Assembly: GCA_028685665.1 (NCBI GenBank)
Contig: JAQUDN010000003.1
Span: 1-49,166, forward strand
Length of the DNA: 49,166 bases
Reading direction: 5' to 3'
Origin: Burkholderiaceae bacterium
GTDB taxonomy: Bacteria; Pseudomonadota; Gammaproteobacteria; Burkholderiales; Burkholderiaceae_C
Shown: piece by piece, positions 41,800-49,166 of the stretch
Numbering within the stretch: the stretch's first letter is position 1
Layout of the letters: each line of letters opens with the position of its first letter
Program-made: the position numbers and the translations under genes
Notes under the pieces: model-generated
What the model was told of the DNA's origin: nothing
Databases searched by the model: none
What the model saw: only the letters and a program-made list of their open reading frames with translations

Positions 41800-43929
<2,130 letters not shown>

Positions 43930-44394
43930 TCAGGTGTTCGCCCGGCGCTTGAGCCAGCGCATCAAGCGGCCCACCAGGGGCAGCTTTTCATACAACTCTT
44001 CGGCGGCATCCCAGTAGTCGCGGTGCAGGATCACCCGCCCCTGCGCATCGAGCACCAGGTGCGAGGCGCCGCGCACGGTCTGGGTCACGCCCGGATGGAA
44101 GCTTTTGAACGCAAACAGGAAGTCCCAGGTCAGAAAACACTGGTCGCCCTGCACCACGCGGCCGGTGACGACAAAGCGGGGCTGGTCGAGCGAGGCAAAC
44201 ATGTGGCGGAAGATCTGGGTGATGGCCGGGACCCCCTGCACTTCGTTGAAGGGGTCCTTGAAGACGGCCTCGGACGCATAGAAACGCCCGAGGGCCGGCA
44301 GATCGTCCGGGGACAAATGCTCGAAAAAACCCACCAGGCGGGTCACGGCGTCTTCCATGGCGGCGGGCGGCCGTCTCGGTTCGGAAAGGGGCAT
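43930..44394 (-). CDS. NTF2-like/SnoaL-type protein
   Basis: 154 aa. A cone-shaped NTF2-like fold is indicated by ALGRFYASEAVFKDPFNEVQG at the N-terminus and VILHRDYWDAAEELYEKLP at the C-terminal end, with a Trp/Phe-lined pocket (FLTWDFLFAFKSF). It ends with a basic LMRWLKRRANT tail. Function uncertain: binding of a small lipid or polyketide-like ligand, or an isomerase. It lies three bases after the SDR stop, so it is the last gene of the lipid operon. Confidence 0.85.
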   Translation of the reverse strand: MPLSEPRRPPAAMEDAVTRLVGFFEHLSPDDLPALGRFYASEAVFKDPFNEVQGVPAITQIFRHMFASLDQPRFVVTGRVVQGDQCFLTWDFLFAFKSFHPGVTQTVRGASHLVLDAQGRVILHRDYWDAAEELYEKLPLVGRLMRWLKRRANT

Positions 44395-44397
44395 GGC

Positions 44398-45180
44398 TCA
44401 AAGTCCGGTGAAGCGGCGCACCAGCGGGAAATACCACCGGTACGGCAGCAGGCGCAGCAGCTTCATGACCCGGGTGAAACGTTTGGGAAAGTGGATGTCG
44501 AAGTCGCCCCGCGCCCAGCCCTGCAGGATGGCTGCGGCCGCCTGCTCGGGTGAAATCAGCGCCGGCATGGCGAACTCATTGCCCTGGGTCAGCGGGGTGG
44601 CCACAAAGCCCGGGTTGATCACGCTCACCCCCATGCCCAGGTCGTGCAGGTCGAGGTACAGGGCCTCGCACAGATTGATCAGCGCGGCCTTGGTGGGGCC
44701 GTAGGCCAGGCTGCGGGGCAGGCCCCGAAAGCCCGCCACGCTGCTGATGAGGCTCACATGGCCGGGCCGGCCGCACTGGGCCGAGGCCACCATGGCCGGC
44801 AGCACGGCATGCAGCACAGACAAGGCACCGGTGTAATTGACCTGGGTGTGCTGCAGCATGGCGGGCAGGTCGATGTCGGTGGCGCGCATGGGGCGGTAGG
44901 TGCCGGCGCACACGCAGACCAGGTCCAGCGGCCCGGCCGCGAGCACCTGGGCAGCGGCCGCATCGACCTGGGCCTGCACGGTGATGTCCAGGGGCAGCGC
45001 CCGGCTGCCGGGATGGGCGTCGGCAAACGCCTGCAAGGCCAAAGGGCTGCGCGCCGACACCACCACCTGCGCGCCACGGGCGTGCAGGGCCGAAGCCATA
45101 GCCTGGCCAATCCCACTGGACGCACCCACCAGCCAGACGCGGCGGCCCTGCCAGTCCCGGAGCGGGGGGTTCAGGCTCAT
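44398..45180 (-). CDS. Short-chain dehydrogenase/reductase
   Basis: 260 aa. Rossmann NAD(P) site VWLVGASSGIGQAMA, the core VCVCAGTY, catalytic Ser in SLISSVAGF and the Tyr-x-x-x-Lys pair in SLAYGPTKAALINL, so the enzyme looks active. The end RFTRVMKLLRLLPYRWYFPLV is basic and hydrophobic, fit for membrane association. The start overlaps the DUF3833 gene 3' end by 4 bases. In this operon it probably reduces a lipid-derived aldehyde or ketone (inference). Confidence 0.9.
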   Translation of the reverse strand: MSLNPPLRDWQGRRVWLVGASSGIGQAMASALHARGAQVVVSARSPLALQAFADAHPGSRALPLDITVQAQVDAAAAQVLAAGPLDLVCVCAGTYRPMRATDIDLPAMLQHTQVNYTGALSVLHAVLPAMVASAQCGRPGHVSLISSVAGFRGLPRSLAYGPTKAALINLCEALYLDLHDLGMGVSVINPGFVATPLTQGNEFAMPALISPEQAAAAILQGWARGDFDIHFPKRFTRVMKLLRLLPYRWYFPLVRRFTGL

Positions 45181-45716
45181 GGCTGGCGCTTGGTGAAGGA
45201 GAGCGTGACCTCGCCCAGGCGGAAGCCGAACTTGCGCATGGTGGCGCGGTTGAGCATGACGCGCTCGTCGATGAGGTACATCCAGTCGTCCATCTGCACC
45301 TCATAGACCGTGCCATCGACCGGCAGGCTCAGCGTGTAGTTCCAGCGGAAGGCATTCCCGGCCGTCTGCCCCACGGCCTCGCCGACCACATCGTCGGCCT
45401 GGCCCGTGACGCGGCCATCGGCATGCTGGGTCAGGCGCCAGATGCGGCGCTGGGTACTGCCATCCGAGTAATGGAACACTTCATCTAGAACGCCCTGCTT
45501 GCCGGTCCAGCGGCCGTCCATCACCACGGTAAAGCGCTTGACGATCTGGCCGCTGCGGTCCTGAAAGATGCCGTGGGCGTCGATGGTGCCGTCGAAATAC
45601 CGGGCGAGGTCGAGCACGGGTTTCTCGGCCGCGTAGCCGGCCAGGTTCTGGCTGGCACAGCCGGACAGGGCGAGCGGGGTGGACAGGGCCATCCAGAGAA
45701 GAGAGCGTCGTTGCAT
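45177..45716 (-). CDS. DUF3833 family lipoprotein
   Basis: 179 aa. Twin-basic-start lipoprotein signal MQRRSLLWMALSTPLALSGC with lipobox LSGC, then DUF3833 features: FDGTIDAHGIFQDRSG, VVMDGRW, YSDGSTQRRIWRL and MYLIDERVMLNRATMRKFGF. DUF3833 is recurrent beside cfa and DUF1365 genes; its fold suggests lipid handling in the envelope. The start overlaps the MFS stop by one base (TGATG), and its end overlaps the SDR start. Confidence 0.88.
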   Translation of the reverse strand: MQRRSLLWMALSTPLALSGCASQNLAGYAAEKPVLDLARYFDGTIDAHGIFQDRSGQIVKRFTVVMDGRWTGKQGVLDEVFHYSDGSTQRRIWRLTQHADGRVTGQADDVVGEAVGQTAGNAFRWNYTLSLPVDGTVYEVQMDDWMYLIDERVMLNRATMRKFGFRLGEVTLSFTKRQP

Positions 45717-47017
45717 CAGGGGGCTCCTTGGGAGAGAGGGCGGTCCGTGGGCACGGGACGCCGCAGGATCAGGCCGTACAGGGCGGCAGCGGCCAGCAGC
45801 TTGAGCCCGCAGGGCAGCACCGCATACGCCCAGCCCAGGGCCTGCAGGCCCTCGGGGCTGCGGGTGCCGGGCTGGTAACCCAGCCCGTCGAGCAAGGGCA
45901 AGGCCAGGCCGGCGGCCAGGGCCAGGTTGAGCTTGGCGGCAAAGTGCCACCAACCCAAATACGCGCCTTCGTGCTGGCCGCTGTCGCCCTGGCGTTCGAT
46001 CACGCCGGCGAGCAAGGCCCCCGGCAGGGCCAGATCAGTGCCCAGGGCTATGCCCGAAAGGGCGCACACCCCCAGGAACGCAGCGCCATCGCCCACGCCC
46101 AGGCCCGCCGTCCAGGCAAAAACAGCCACCGCCAGGCCCATGCCGATCAACCAGGTGGCGGCCAGCCCCCAGCGGGCCACGGCGCGCAGCCACAGCGGAA
46201 TCGACAGGGCTGCACACAGAAAATACGCGCCCAGAAACAGCGGCTCCTGCACAGGCGGAACCTGCAGCCGGTCCTGGACGAAAAACAGCACCAGCGTGGC
46301 CGGCACGGCACTGGCAATGCCATTGAGCATGAACACCGCCAGCAGCCGGCGAAAGGCCGGACGCGCCCAGGGCCGCCACAGGCTGGCCCCAGAGGCCACC
46401 GCCCCTGCCGCGCGCGGCACAGCCGCTGGGCGGGGCGCACGCGCCCAGGCCAGCCAGCCGAGGACCAGGGTGGCCGCAAACACCCCCAGCATCGCGGGCA
46501 AGCCCCACAGGCTGGGCAGCACCGAAGCCAGCACCACGCCCACCAAAGCGGCCCCCTCGCGCCAGGCGACGATGCGGCTGCGCTGCAACTCATCGCCCCC
46601 CAGCCGCGCGCCCCAGGCCTGGTGCGCAATGCCCAGTTGGCTGTAGGCGGCATAGGTGACCAGCAAACAGGCCAGCGCCCAGGCGGTCAGGGCGTCCGGG
46701 CTGCGCACGGGCGGAAAGAACAGGCCCGTCAACCCCAGGGCCAGGACCAGGGCCGACAAGCCCCCCACCGCCAGCACCGCACGGGTGGAGCGCGCAAACA
46801 GCCGGTCGCTCAGGCGGCCCAGCCAAGGATCGGTCAGGGCATCCAACAACCGGGCCGCGAGCAGCACCGTGCCCAGCGTGGCCAGGGGCATGCCAAACGC
46901 ACGGGCGTAGTGGTGCGGCAACAGCACATACAAGGGCAGCGCGACGAAGGCGAGCGGCAGGCCGAGCAGGCCATAGGCCAGGCCCTCGCGCGCGCTCCAG
47001 CGCGGCCGGGACGTCAT
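45716..47017 (-). CDS. MFS transporter, glycoside-pentoside-hexuronide (GPH) cation symporter type
   Basis: 433 aa with about twelve membrane helices. The DALTDPWLGRLSDR loop and the second-half GIALGTDLALPGALLAGVIE are GPH-family-like, including the conserved Asp-Pro in helix 2 loop. GPH members move sugars, yet family branches beside cfa genes probably move lipids or other products. The start overlaps the chalcone-isomerase-like stop by 4 bases, and the stop overlaps the lipoprotein start. Confidence 0.9.
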   Translation of the reverse strand: MTSRPRWSAREGLAYGLLGLPLAFVALPLYVLLPHHYARAFGMPLATLGTVLLAARLLDALTDPWLGRLSDRLFARSTRAVLAVGGLSALVLALGLTGLFFPPVRSPDALTAWALACLLVTYAAYSQLGIAHQAWGARLGGDELQRSRIVAWREGAALVGVVLASVLPSLWGLPAMLGVFAATLVLGWLAWARAPRPAAVPRAAGAVASGASLWRPWARPAFRRLLAVFMLNGIASAVPATLVLFFVQDRLQVPPVQEPLFLGAYFLCAALSIPLWLRAVARWGLAATWLIGMGLAVAVFAWTAGLGVGDGAAFLGVCALSGIALGTDLALPGALLAGVIERQGDSGQHEGAYLGWWHFAAKLNLALAAGLALPLLDGLGYQPGTRSPEGLQALGWAYAVLPCGLKLLAAAALYGLILRRPVPTDRPLSQGAP

Positions 47018-47571
47018 GGGGTGCCCGTGGAACGGGGGGCAGCGATCAGGGCCTGGCGCAAGCTGGGCTCGGAGGTCTGGGGCGACAACCAGATGCCAAA
47101 GAACAAGCGGGCGAATTCAGGGTCGGGCACTTGGCCCACCACGCGCCCCCCCAGATGGAACAAGGCCGCGCCCCCCGGCTGGTAGATGCCGGTGAGCCGG
47201 TCGCCGGCCTTGACATCGGGCAGCGCAGCCTGCAGCGCCTGCTGCCAGCGCTGTGCCTGTGGCTCGCTGAACGTGCCCACACGGCGCATTTCTTCAAGAG
47301 AGCGTTTGGCAATCGCCTGCGCCGAAAAATCACGCTGGTAGGTCAGCTCCAGGGCCAGGGGGTGGGCCGCGTAATCCTCGGGGTTGAAGCCGGGGCGCAC
47401 CCAGAGGCGGGCCCGGTAGATGTCGAAGCCCAGGAAGCGCATCATCCCCTGCCCCGCCAGGCGCAGGTCGGACAAGGGCCAGGCGGGGTCGGCGGCCTGG
47501 GCCCATGCGGCTTGGGCACAAAACAGGCCTCCAGCACAAGCCAGCATTACAGAACAAGCTATCTTTTTCAT
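47014..47571 (-). CDS. Chalcone isomerase-like periplasmic protein
   Basis: 185 aa. Signal peptide (IACSVMLACAGGLFCAQAAWAQA) followed by a chalcone-isomerase-like domain: LRLAGQGMMRFLGFDIYRARL, ALELTYQRDFSAQAIAKRS and a C-terminal FGIWLSPQTSEPSLRQALI segment. Bacterial members of this fold are usually non-catalytic fatty-acid-binding proteins. ATG at 47571 has GGAAG six bases upstream; ATG at 47586 would add five residues. It follows cfa by 38 bases and overlaps the MFS start. Confidence 0.88.
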   Translation of the reverse strand: MKKIACSVMLACAGGLFCAQAAWAQAADPAWPLSDLRLAGQGMMRFLGFDIYRARLWVRPGFNPEDYAAHPLALELTYQRDFSAQAIAKRSLEEMRRVGTFSEPQAQRWQQALQAALPDVKAGDRLTGIYQPGGAALFHLGGRVVGQVPDPEFARLFFGIWLSPQTSEPSLRQALIAAPRSTGTP

Positions 47572-47609
47572 AGTAATTTCTTCCATGAAACGCCCAGGAG
47601 CCTGGCGGT

Positions 47610-48851
47610 TCAGGGCTTGACCAGGGTGTACTGCACCAGGTCAATGTTCTGCATGGCAAAGGCGGCTTCGCAGTAGGCGAGGTAGAACTCCCAGATGTGC
47701 ATGAAGCGCTCGTCGAAGCCGAGTTGGTGGATATGGGCGCGCTGGGCCAGAAAGCGCTCGCGCCAGCGCTTGAGGGTTTCCGCATAGTCCTGGCCAAAGG
47801 CAAATTCGTCGACCACCCGCAGGCCCGCCGCCTCGGCTTCGCGGCGGAATTCGCGGGGGCAGGGCAGGCAGCCGCCAGGGAAGATGTACTGCTGGATGAA
47901 ATCGGTGGAACTGATGTAGCGCTGGAACAGGCTGTCGTCGATCACGATGCTCTGGATGCAGGCCTTGCCGCCCGGCTTGAGCAGGCGGTTCAGCGCCTGG
48001 AAATAGGTCGGCCAGTATTCGCGGCCCACGGCCTCGATCATCTCGATGGAGCAAATGGCGTCGTAAGGGCCATCGCTGACATCGCGGTAGTCCTGCAGGC
48101 GCAGATCAGCCCGGCGCTCCATGCCATGCTGGGCCATGCGGCGCTGGGCAAAGGCCAGCTGCTCGGTGGACAGCGTGACGCCCGTGAGCGAGGCGCCGAA
48201 CTCGGTAGTGGCCATCTCGGCCAGGGCGCCCCAGCCGCAGCCGATCTCCAGCACCCGGTCGCCCGCCTGGACCCCGGCCATGCGCAGCGCCCGGCGCACC
48301 TTGGCCTGCTGCGCGGCCCGCATATCGCCACCGGCATCGTCCTCGAACAGGGCCGAGGAGGAGTTCATGGTGTCGTCGAGCCACAGCTCATAGAACGCAT
48401 TGCCCAGGTCGTAGTGGGCATGGATGTTTTTCTGGCTGTTGGTGCGCGTGTTCCGGTTGAGCAGGTGCTTGACGCGGTAGAGCAGCCGACCGGCCCAGGT
48501 GCCATACACCATGCTTTCCACCTGCTGGCGGTTGGCAATGAACAGCTTGAGCAGATCGGTCAGGTGGGGCGTGGTCCAGTCGCCGGCGATATAGCTTTCG
48601 GCAAAGCCGATGTCTCCGGACTTCAGGGCGGCGCTGCAGGCATTCCAGTTCTTGAGCGTGATGGCTGCTGCCACCCCGCCCCCCTGGCCAAAATGCTGCA
48701 GGCTGCCATCGGGCAGCTGGACCGTGAGGCTGCCGTGCTGCAGGCGCTGCAGCAGCTTCAGGGCAGTGCGGGCGGCGGCCGGAACATTGGACGGCAGGGC
48801 GGTGGCTCCGCGGGGGGCAGTAGAAGAGTTCATGGCGGTCTCGTTGGGCAT
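47610..48851 (-). CDS. cfa: Cyclopropane-fatty-acyl-phospholipid synthase family methyltransferase
   Basis: 413 aa. Uses SAM to methylenate or methylate unsaturated acyl chains of membrane phospholipids. Visible: AHYDLGNAFYELWLDDTMNSSS, the SAM motif VLEIGCGWGALAEMA, LTGVTLSTEQLAFAQ, SIEMIEAVGREYW and YIFPGGCLP. Full length. Start 48851 lies 4 bases after the DUF1365 stop; ATG at 48833 is an alternative. It may be a methyl- rather than cyclopropane-forming enzyme, as some homologues in such operons make branched or furan precursors. Confidence 0.95.
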   Translation of the reverse strand: MPNETAMNSSTAPRGATALPSNVPAAARTALKLLQRLQHGSLTVQLPDGSLQHFGQGGGVAAAITLKNWNACSAALKSGDIGFAESYIAGDWTTPHLTDLLKLFIANRQQVESMVYGTWAGRLLYRVKHLLNRNTRTNSQKNIHAHYDLGNAFYELWLDDTMNSSSALFEDDAGGDMRAAQQAKVRRALRMAGVQAGDRVLEIGCGWGALAEMATTEFGASLTGVTLSTEQLAFAQRRMAQHGMERRADLRLQDYRDVSDGPYDAICSIEMIEAVGREYWPTYFQALNRLLKPGGKACIQSIVIDDSLFQRYISSTDFIQQYIFPGGCLPCPREFRREAEAAGLRVVDEFAFGQDYAETLKRWRERFLAQRAHIHQLGFDERFMHIWEFYLAYCEAAFAMQNIDLVQYTLVKP

Positions 48852-48855
48852 GGGT

Positions 48856-49166
48856 TCAACGGGTCACGATGGAGGCGGGCGCCTCGGGCTTGCGATGGAA
48901 ACGCACGCGCTTGAGCCAGAGCTGCAGCGCGTGCCAGTGGATGCGGGCGATCACCGCCAGCGTCATGGCCGGATAGCCCCAGATGGCACGGCGCAGGGTC
49001 TGCGGCGTCACGGAATAGAGGGTCCCGCTCACGCTGGTCTGGATCAGCAGGCCGTCGGCATCGTCGTAGTCGATGCGCACCACGGTGCGGCCCGCTTCGG
49101 CGCCCTGCGCAGGGGGCGCCGTGCGCAGGAAGCGAAAACGGTACTGGCCGCTGACTTCGCAAAACG
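48856..49166 (-). CDS. DUF1365 family protein, 5' partial
   Basis: Only the C-terminal 102 residues are visible; the frame runs off the right edge. The beginning of the visible part (FCEVSGQYRFRF) and the end (WGYPAMTLAVIARIHWHALQLWLK) are characteristic of DUF1365, which is almost always next to cfa-like genes and flavin amine oxidases. It is the first gene in view of the lipid-modification operon, and its stop is 4 bases before the cfa start. Confidence 0.88.
   Translation of the reverse strand, partial: FCEVSGQYRFRFLRTAPPAQGAEAGRTVVRIDYDDADGLLIQTSVSGTLYSVTPQTLRRAIWGYPAMTLAVIARIHWHALQLWLKRVRFHRKPEAPASIVTR

Follow-up and report, generated by a model that had tools for sequence, protein, structure and literature searches.

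Results

An eight-gene operon with a predicted furan fatty acid core

The window analysed here is the whole of contig JAQUDN010000003.1 (49,166 nucleotides, assembly GCA_028685665.1, referred to below as C47) from a Burkholderiaceae bacterium. One of its ends carries most of an operon that, judged from its sequence, encodes homologues of the enzymes of furan fatty acid synthesis along with a set of accessory proteins. Furan fatty acids are lipids produced under light and oxidative stress. A Pfam search of the window proteins matched seven families at the positions given in Table 1, all on the minus strand and tightly packed, as had been described in an earlier note on this DNA. The overlaps, each of 4 bp, join the chalcone-isomerase-like and transporter genes, the transporter and DUF3833 genes, and the DUF3833 and short-chain dehydrogenase/reductase (SDR) genes. 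The gaps are of 3 bp between the SDR and SnoaL genes, 4 bp between the DUF1365 and cfa-like genes, and 23 or 38 bp between the cfa-like and chalcone-isomerase-like genes, depending on the start codon chosen.

The DUF1365 gene, which the same note had listed as a member of the set, is indeed present but is not complete, since it is interrupted by the end of C47 and its remainder lies on another contig, C251. C251 opens with the same 17 bases that close C47, the two DUF1365 halves are complementary (profile positions 3-151 and 148-234) and the reading frame is kept; the first 179 codons lie at C251:1-537 on the minus strand and the C-terminal 102 in the window. The join rests on this short 17-bp overlap and on the matching gene content. 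The amine oxidase gene that had been expected upstream is found on C251, where it overlaps the DUF1365 gene by 4 bp, and a glutathione peroxidase gene (gpx) lies 235 bp upstream of the amine oxidase gene. From the sequence, the operon comprises the eight genes ufaD-ufaO-ufaM-chi-mfs-DUF3833-sdr-snoaL. It is probably headed by gpx, because gpx overlaps ufaD in the relatives L056 and L109. No matches were returned by a PHROGs search, and no sigma-70 promoter was found by a scan of the part of the operon in the window.

Table 1. Genes of the operon and its probable head. Positions refer to the window unless another contig or locus is named.
Feature	Position	Strand	Basis
ufaO (DUF1365), C-terminal 102 codons	48856..49164	-	DUF1365 2e-20, C-terminal part only
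ufaM, cfa-like S-adenosylmethionine methyltransferase	47610..48851	-	CMAS 9e-83
Chalcone-isomerase-like protein (chi)	47014..47571	-	Chalcone_3 2e-11; N-terminal signal peptide by eye
MFS_2-family transporter	45716..47017	-	MFS_2 1e-43; closest solved structures MFSD2A
DUF3833 lipoprotein	45177..45719	-	DUF3833 4e-70; lipobox LSGC by eye
Short-chain dehydrogenase/reductase (SDR)	44398..45180	-	adh_short 6e-33
SnoaL/NTF2-like protein (end of the operon)	43930..44394	-	SnoaL_2 1e-14
ufaD, flavin adenine dinucleotide (FAD) amine oxidase, 434 aa	C251:534-1838		PF01593 7e-20
Glutathione peroxidase (gpx)	L013:2074-2691		N-terminal signal sequence by eye

The amine oxidase, DUF1365 and cfa-like genes are homologous in sequence to UfaD, UfaO and UfaM, an amine-oxidase-like desaturase, a DUF1365 protein and a CFA-type methylase, which together build a methylated furan fatty acid on the acyl chains of phospholipids (PMC7380195). 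The oxygen of the furan ring comes from O2, and UfaO carries out the O2-dependent furan formation (PMC7380195). The statement in the earlier note that the role of DUF1365 is not established is therefore outdated, and its proposal of an operon for furan or methylated fatty acids is borne out by the gene content. UfaO is recognised by DUF1365 matches on both halves together with the 17-bp overlap, ufaD is linked to ufaO on C251, and the methylase encoded in the operon is of the UfaM type, with the same changes at H266 and C139 as its ufaD/ufaO-linked homologues (described below). By analogy with the homologues in Rhodobacter and Rhodopseudomonas, for which the reactions were demonstrated by experiment, UfaM would methylate a cis-unsaturated phospholipid acyl chain, UfaD would then desaturate the methylated chain, and UfaO would put in the O2-derived oxygen as the furan ring closes. 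This core is established biology in a new host, and the best explanation of the locus, which we consider probable, is a stress operon with a furan-synthesis core and accessory lipid-handling genes.

Comparison of 41 UfaO sequences identified one invariant histidine and two further histidines in approximately 80%, which says little about a metal site. Searches with the UfaO, DUF3833 and chalcone-isomerase-like sequences against solved structures gave nothing convincing. We make no claim for the fold of UfaO, since a model of the L058 homologue (pLDDT 91) gave VIA-align Z scores of at most 7.4, which is a common range, and Foldseek returned nothing confident for it (best E 0.04).

UfaM carries a signature that differs from cyclopropane synthases

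Three Cfa enzymes of solved structure were aligned with 53 CMAS proteins taken from the retrieved loci, and residues are numbered according to E. coli Cfa. In that enzyme we take the bicarbonate-binding site to comprise C139, E239, H266, I268 and Y317. The UfaM of the operon retains E239, I268 and Y317 and has serine (Ser166) for C139 and glutamine (Gln300) for H266, so that two ligands of the site are altered. The same pattern is seen across the CMAS proteins encoded with a ufaD/ufaO core, in which E239, I268 and Y317 are maintained, the H266 position is glutamine in 50/50, and the C139 position is serine, alanine or glycine in 49/50, cysteine being kept in one. The H240 position is alanine in 49 of these 50 and arginine in the other. 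Both histidines are kept in all three DUF1295-linked CMAS proteins. The signature is derived from the ufaD/ufaO-linked sequences collected here and not from biochemically verified UfaM. Without the bicarbonate ligands, the reaction might finish with the release of a proton to give an alkene instead of with ring closure. It is probable that UfaM differs from an ordinary cyclopropane synthase. A search of the genome, the assembly of which is 88% complete, found no other full-length CMAS protein.

DUF1295 genes were observed near some ufaD-ufaO-ufaM clusters (L107, L122, L125 and L126). In L107, L125 and L126 the DUF1295 gene adjoins another CMAS gene, whose product retains both histidines of Cfa and possibly performs the FufM (second methylation) step.

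The accessory proteins resemble lipid transporters and lipid-binding barrels

MFSD2A is the human lysophospholipid carrier, sodium-dependent lysophosphatidylcholine symporter 1. A profile of the transporter family of the operon scored 147 bits against MFSD2A and 98 bits against MelB among solved structures, and is therefore closer to MFSD2A, a relationship that is new. D59, D63 and K362 are invariant within the family, and a pairwise alignment places these residues, two aspartates near the N-terminus and a late lysine, opposite residues of MFSD2A. The operon transporter is bacterial and shorter.

The structure of the DUF3833 protein was modelled with a pLDDT of 95. The model aligned with BFA1 over 131 residues (VIA-align Z 16.3, root-mean-square deviation 2.4), with Z of about 14 to nitrobindin and about 10 to fatty-acid-binding proteins. 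In this predicted structure the protein has an up-and-down beta barrel of the nitrobindin/fatty-acid-binding type (Z 13-16 over about 130 residues), and DUF3833 is thus predicted to be a lipocalin-like (calycin) barrel, which is also new. The chalcone-isomerase-like protein of the operon belongs to a divergent branch, since the genome encodes another Chalcone_3 protein (G000:C191:23529-24029) that matches the family far better (1e-40, against 4e-11).

Taken together, the profile of the transporter and the predicted fold of DUF3833 point to work on lipids in the envelope, and the likeliest role of the accessory genes is the handling of modified or oxidised lipids there. The MFSD2A-like symporter may carry fatty acids or lysophospholipids through the inner membrane, and acyl chains may be bound in the periplasm by two proteins, the DUF3833 lipoprotein and the one resembling chalcone isomerase. 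The SDR and SnoaL proteins could process oxidised products, and the glutathione peroxidase could remove lipid peroxides. The envelope role suggested in the earlier note is plausible, and is strengthened by the transporter profile and the predicted barrel.

Conservation of the gene order in relatives and in Azoarcus

Five further genomes from the same order (L050, L054, L056, L058 and L062) share the arrangement UfaD-UfaO-UfaM-CHI-MFS-DUF3833-SDR-SnoaL, as does plasmid pAZKH of Azoarcus sp. KH32C (AZKH_RS26020 to AZKH_RS25985), where a divergent MerR-family regulator is present and the head is without gpx. A survey of 299 genomes from the phylum gave 69 with DUF3833, 94 with DUF1365 and 66 with both (Fisher p 1e-39, without correction for relatedness). 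Within the class, more distant genomes often have SnoaL-SDR ahead of ufaD, with DUF2878-CHI-DUF3833 behind it or separate, and 50 of 80 Rhodobacteraceae-type loci have a ChrR-ECF pair (ECF, extracytoplasmic function sigma factor) divergent from UfaD-UfaO-MFS-DUF3833-SDR.

Two characterised systems can be compared with the operon. In R. sphaeroides RSP1091-1087 comprise ufaD, ufaO and three further genes under RpoE-ChrR, with ufaM at RSP2144 (PMC7380195). The three genes encode proteins of 402, 186 and 245 aa, which fit the transporter, DUF3833 and SDR by size only; removing RSP1087, 1088 or 1089 had no effect on the fatty acid profile, so genes at these positions are dispensable for ring synthesis in Rhodobacter (PMC7380195). 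In contrast, the operon described here includes ufaM together with extra genes for chalcone-isomerase-like and SnoaL proteins, and it is preceded by gpx; ChrR was not found. The pmlR1/pplR1 region of Pseudomonas (LitR, phrB, SDR, FAD oxidoreductase and ufaM; PMC9758184) likewise brings SDR, FAD oxidoreductase and ufaM together in a light-induced cluster, and matching gene orders were seen in the genome survey, whereas photolyase and B12-MerR genes were not found here. In clusters of this Pseudomonas type chi-DUF3833 is often unlinked, and an MFS gene was not seen.

A signal-bearing glutathione peroxidase gene stands ahead of ufaD here and in L056, L058, L062 and L109, and in Shewanella a periplasmic glutathione peroxidase belongs to the RpoE2-ChrR regulon (PMC4336711). 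On the downstream side the operon is bordered by a convergent glutathione S-transferase gene (43285-43899, plus strand), which together with purB occupies window positions 41800-43899; purB also lies 3' of the identical operon in L058 (genome G019). Klebsiella accounts for 95 of 135 plasmid records with DUF3833. On one such plasmid (L246, NZ_CP113201.1, 5947-7454) DUF3833 adjoins a DUF523/DUF1722 gene, and ufa genes are absent from the vicinity; fusions of DUF523-type and DUF1722 domains (RudS) are tRNA 4-thiouridine desulfidases (PMC11417400).

A candidate ECF/RskA-type regulator

ECF/ChrR pairs, photolyases or B12-binding MerR regulators stand beside homologous operons in relatives, the last of these adjoining the operon in L058. 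Many relatives carry ECF/ChrR or a B12-MerR, both known as photo-oxidative regulators, close to the operon. In those with ECF/ChrR, TGATCC-N16-CGTA precedes ufaD, snoaL or the ECF gene itself, although the strict ECF11 motif precedes ufaD in only 21/80 Rhodobacteraceae loci and is not universal there. The association with ECF/ChrR pairs and photolyases anticipated by the earlier note thus holds for the relatives and was not seen in this genome. No ECF or photolyase gene adjoins the operon on C251, and the 88%-complete genome yielded neither ChrR (only a weak cupin match on C119, E 5e-5) nor a B12-MerR of the LitR/CarH type (only a 79-residue match, E 2e-4). TGTA/TACA palindromes are absent upstream of the operon, as is TGATCC-N16-CGTA at its head, where the variant TGAATCC-N16-CGTA is found instead.

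When 68 kb were scanned with a scoring matrix trained on the ECF/ChrR sites of relatives, the best match was at the head of gpx (GAATCC-N16-CGTAA), with a score of 12.7 compared with at least 19.1 for the training sites. The ECF gene closest to an ECF11 query (35% identity) is on C207, unlinked to the operon. It is of the SigK/RskA type, is followed by an RskA-type anti-sigma gene and is preceded by TGAATCC-N16-CGTATT. Genome-wide, TGAATCC-N16-CGTA occurs only upstream of this gene and of gpx, one copy 57 and the other 84 bp before the likely start codon, and the same motif precedes ECF/RskA orthologues in two other genera. A third TGAATCC site, on C96, lies inside a gene with a 15-bp spacer and was judged to be chance. 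Related genomes have approximately 2-3 matches to the pattern for three spacer lengths, so the weight of the motif lies in its position and not in its rarity. From the motif, ECF/RskA control of the operon is likely, and a SigK/RskA-type pair would probably turn it on in place of ChrR or LitR. A search of the literature library found no paper that brings RskA, an ECF sigma factor and singlet oxygen together.

Another ECF gene, paired with an RskA-like one, was observed behind a putative DUF3455-type lipoprotein gene (L210, C255, 1-1808), and in genome G328 (L218) the homologue of this lipoprotein gene is preceded by TGAATCC-N17-CGTA.

Discussion

Additions to the known furan core are a fuller operon, a sequence mark in UfaM, an MFSD2A-like transporter, a predicted fold for DUF3833 and a probable change of regulator. 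A more specific proposal is that the accessory genes of furan operons form an envelope route for lipid trafficking or repair, in which the symporter and the two periplasmic lipid-binding proteins move lysophospholipids that are oxidised or carry a furan; in this genome a SigK/RskA-type ECF pair would control the route in place of ChrR or LitR. We advance this tentatively, as the whole of it is rather unlikely to hold. Several observations weigh against the explanation of the locus as a furan stress operon with lipid-handling genes. The absence of a fatty acid change in the RSP1087, 1088 and 1089 deletions leaves no direct link to the lipid product, and DUF3833 is also found away from ufa genes, as in L246. 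The link between the operon and the ECF motif has been observed only in this genome; L056 is without the motif, L058 and L108 have a MerR-family gene beside the operon instead, and regulators may be missing from an 88%-complete assembly. The 235-bp gap between gpx and ufaD also makes read-through from the gpx promoter an assumption.

The strongest alternative, to which we would give something short of an even chance, is that the accessory genes are a separate photo-oxidative stress unit, co-regulated with the furan genes and not acting on furan lipids. The unchanged furan synthesis in the R. sphaeroides deletions speaks for such a unit, as do the separation of chi-DUF3833 from the ufa genes in several genomes and the DUF523/DUF1722 neighbour of DUF3833 on the Klebsiella plasmid. 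It is, however, at odds with the presence of DUF1365 in 66 of the 69 genomes with DUF3833 and with the single eight-gene order shared by six genomes of the order, this one included.

Two further possibilities concern the product and the transported substrate. The pathway might halt at a methyl-branched or dienoic acid, or give another related product that differs in chain length or by a second methyl group. A DUF1295-linked second CMAS protein, perhaps FufM-like, does accompany other ufa cores and none is seen here, but UfaO, which is responsible for furan formation, is encoded here in a reading frame that runs on over the contig break, and we regard a non-furan end product as unlikely. It is similarly improbable that the transporter is a GPH-type sugar symporter without a tie to lipid work; it matches the gph model TIGR00792 weakly, but at 64.6 bits against a cut-off of 231, and the family profile favours MFSD2A over MelB by approximately 50 bits.

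Least probable of all is an ordinary cyclopropane phospholipid operon with incidental neighbours, since the CMAS family match, the cyclopropane synthases that are the best solved relatives of UfaM, and the cyclic fatty acids also present in an E. coli strain expressing Halomonas UfaM (PMC12089945) are set against substitutions at C139 and H266 that follow the ufaD/ufaO context and against scores well below the curated cyclopropane-synthase cut-offs (286.6/600, 242.3/400 and 214.1/650 bits).

A stress operon built on a furan-synthesis core thus remains the preferred explanation. The change at H266 and C139 offers a simple mark by which makers of methyl-alkenes may be told apart from makers of cyclopropanes, a distinction that public annotation does not make, as records label UfaM proteins of the ufaD/ufaO type cyclopropane synthases. 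If the RskA link is true, one lipid response would be wired to at least three unrelated regulators. The roles of RSP1087-1089 of Rhodobacter were left open, and the MFSD2A-like profile and the predicted lipocalin-like fold would suggest, for two of these genes, a part in lipid transport that can be tested.

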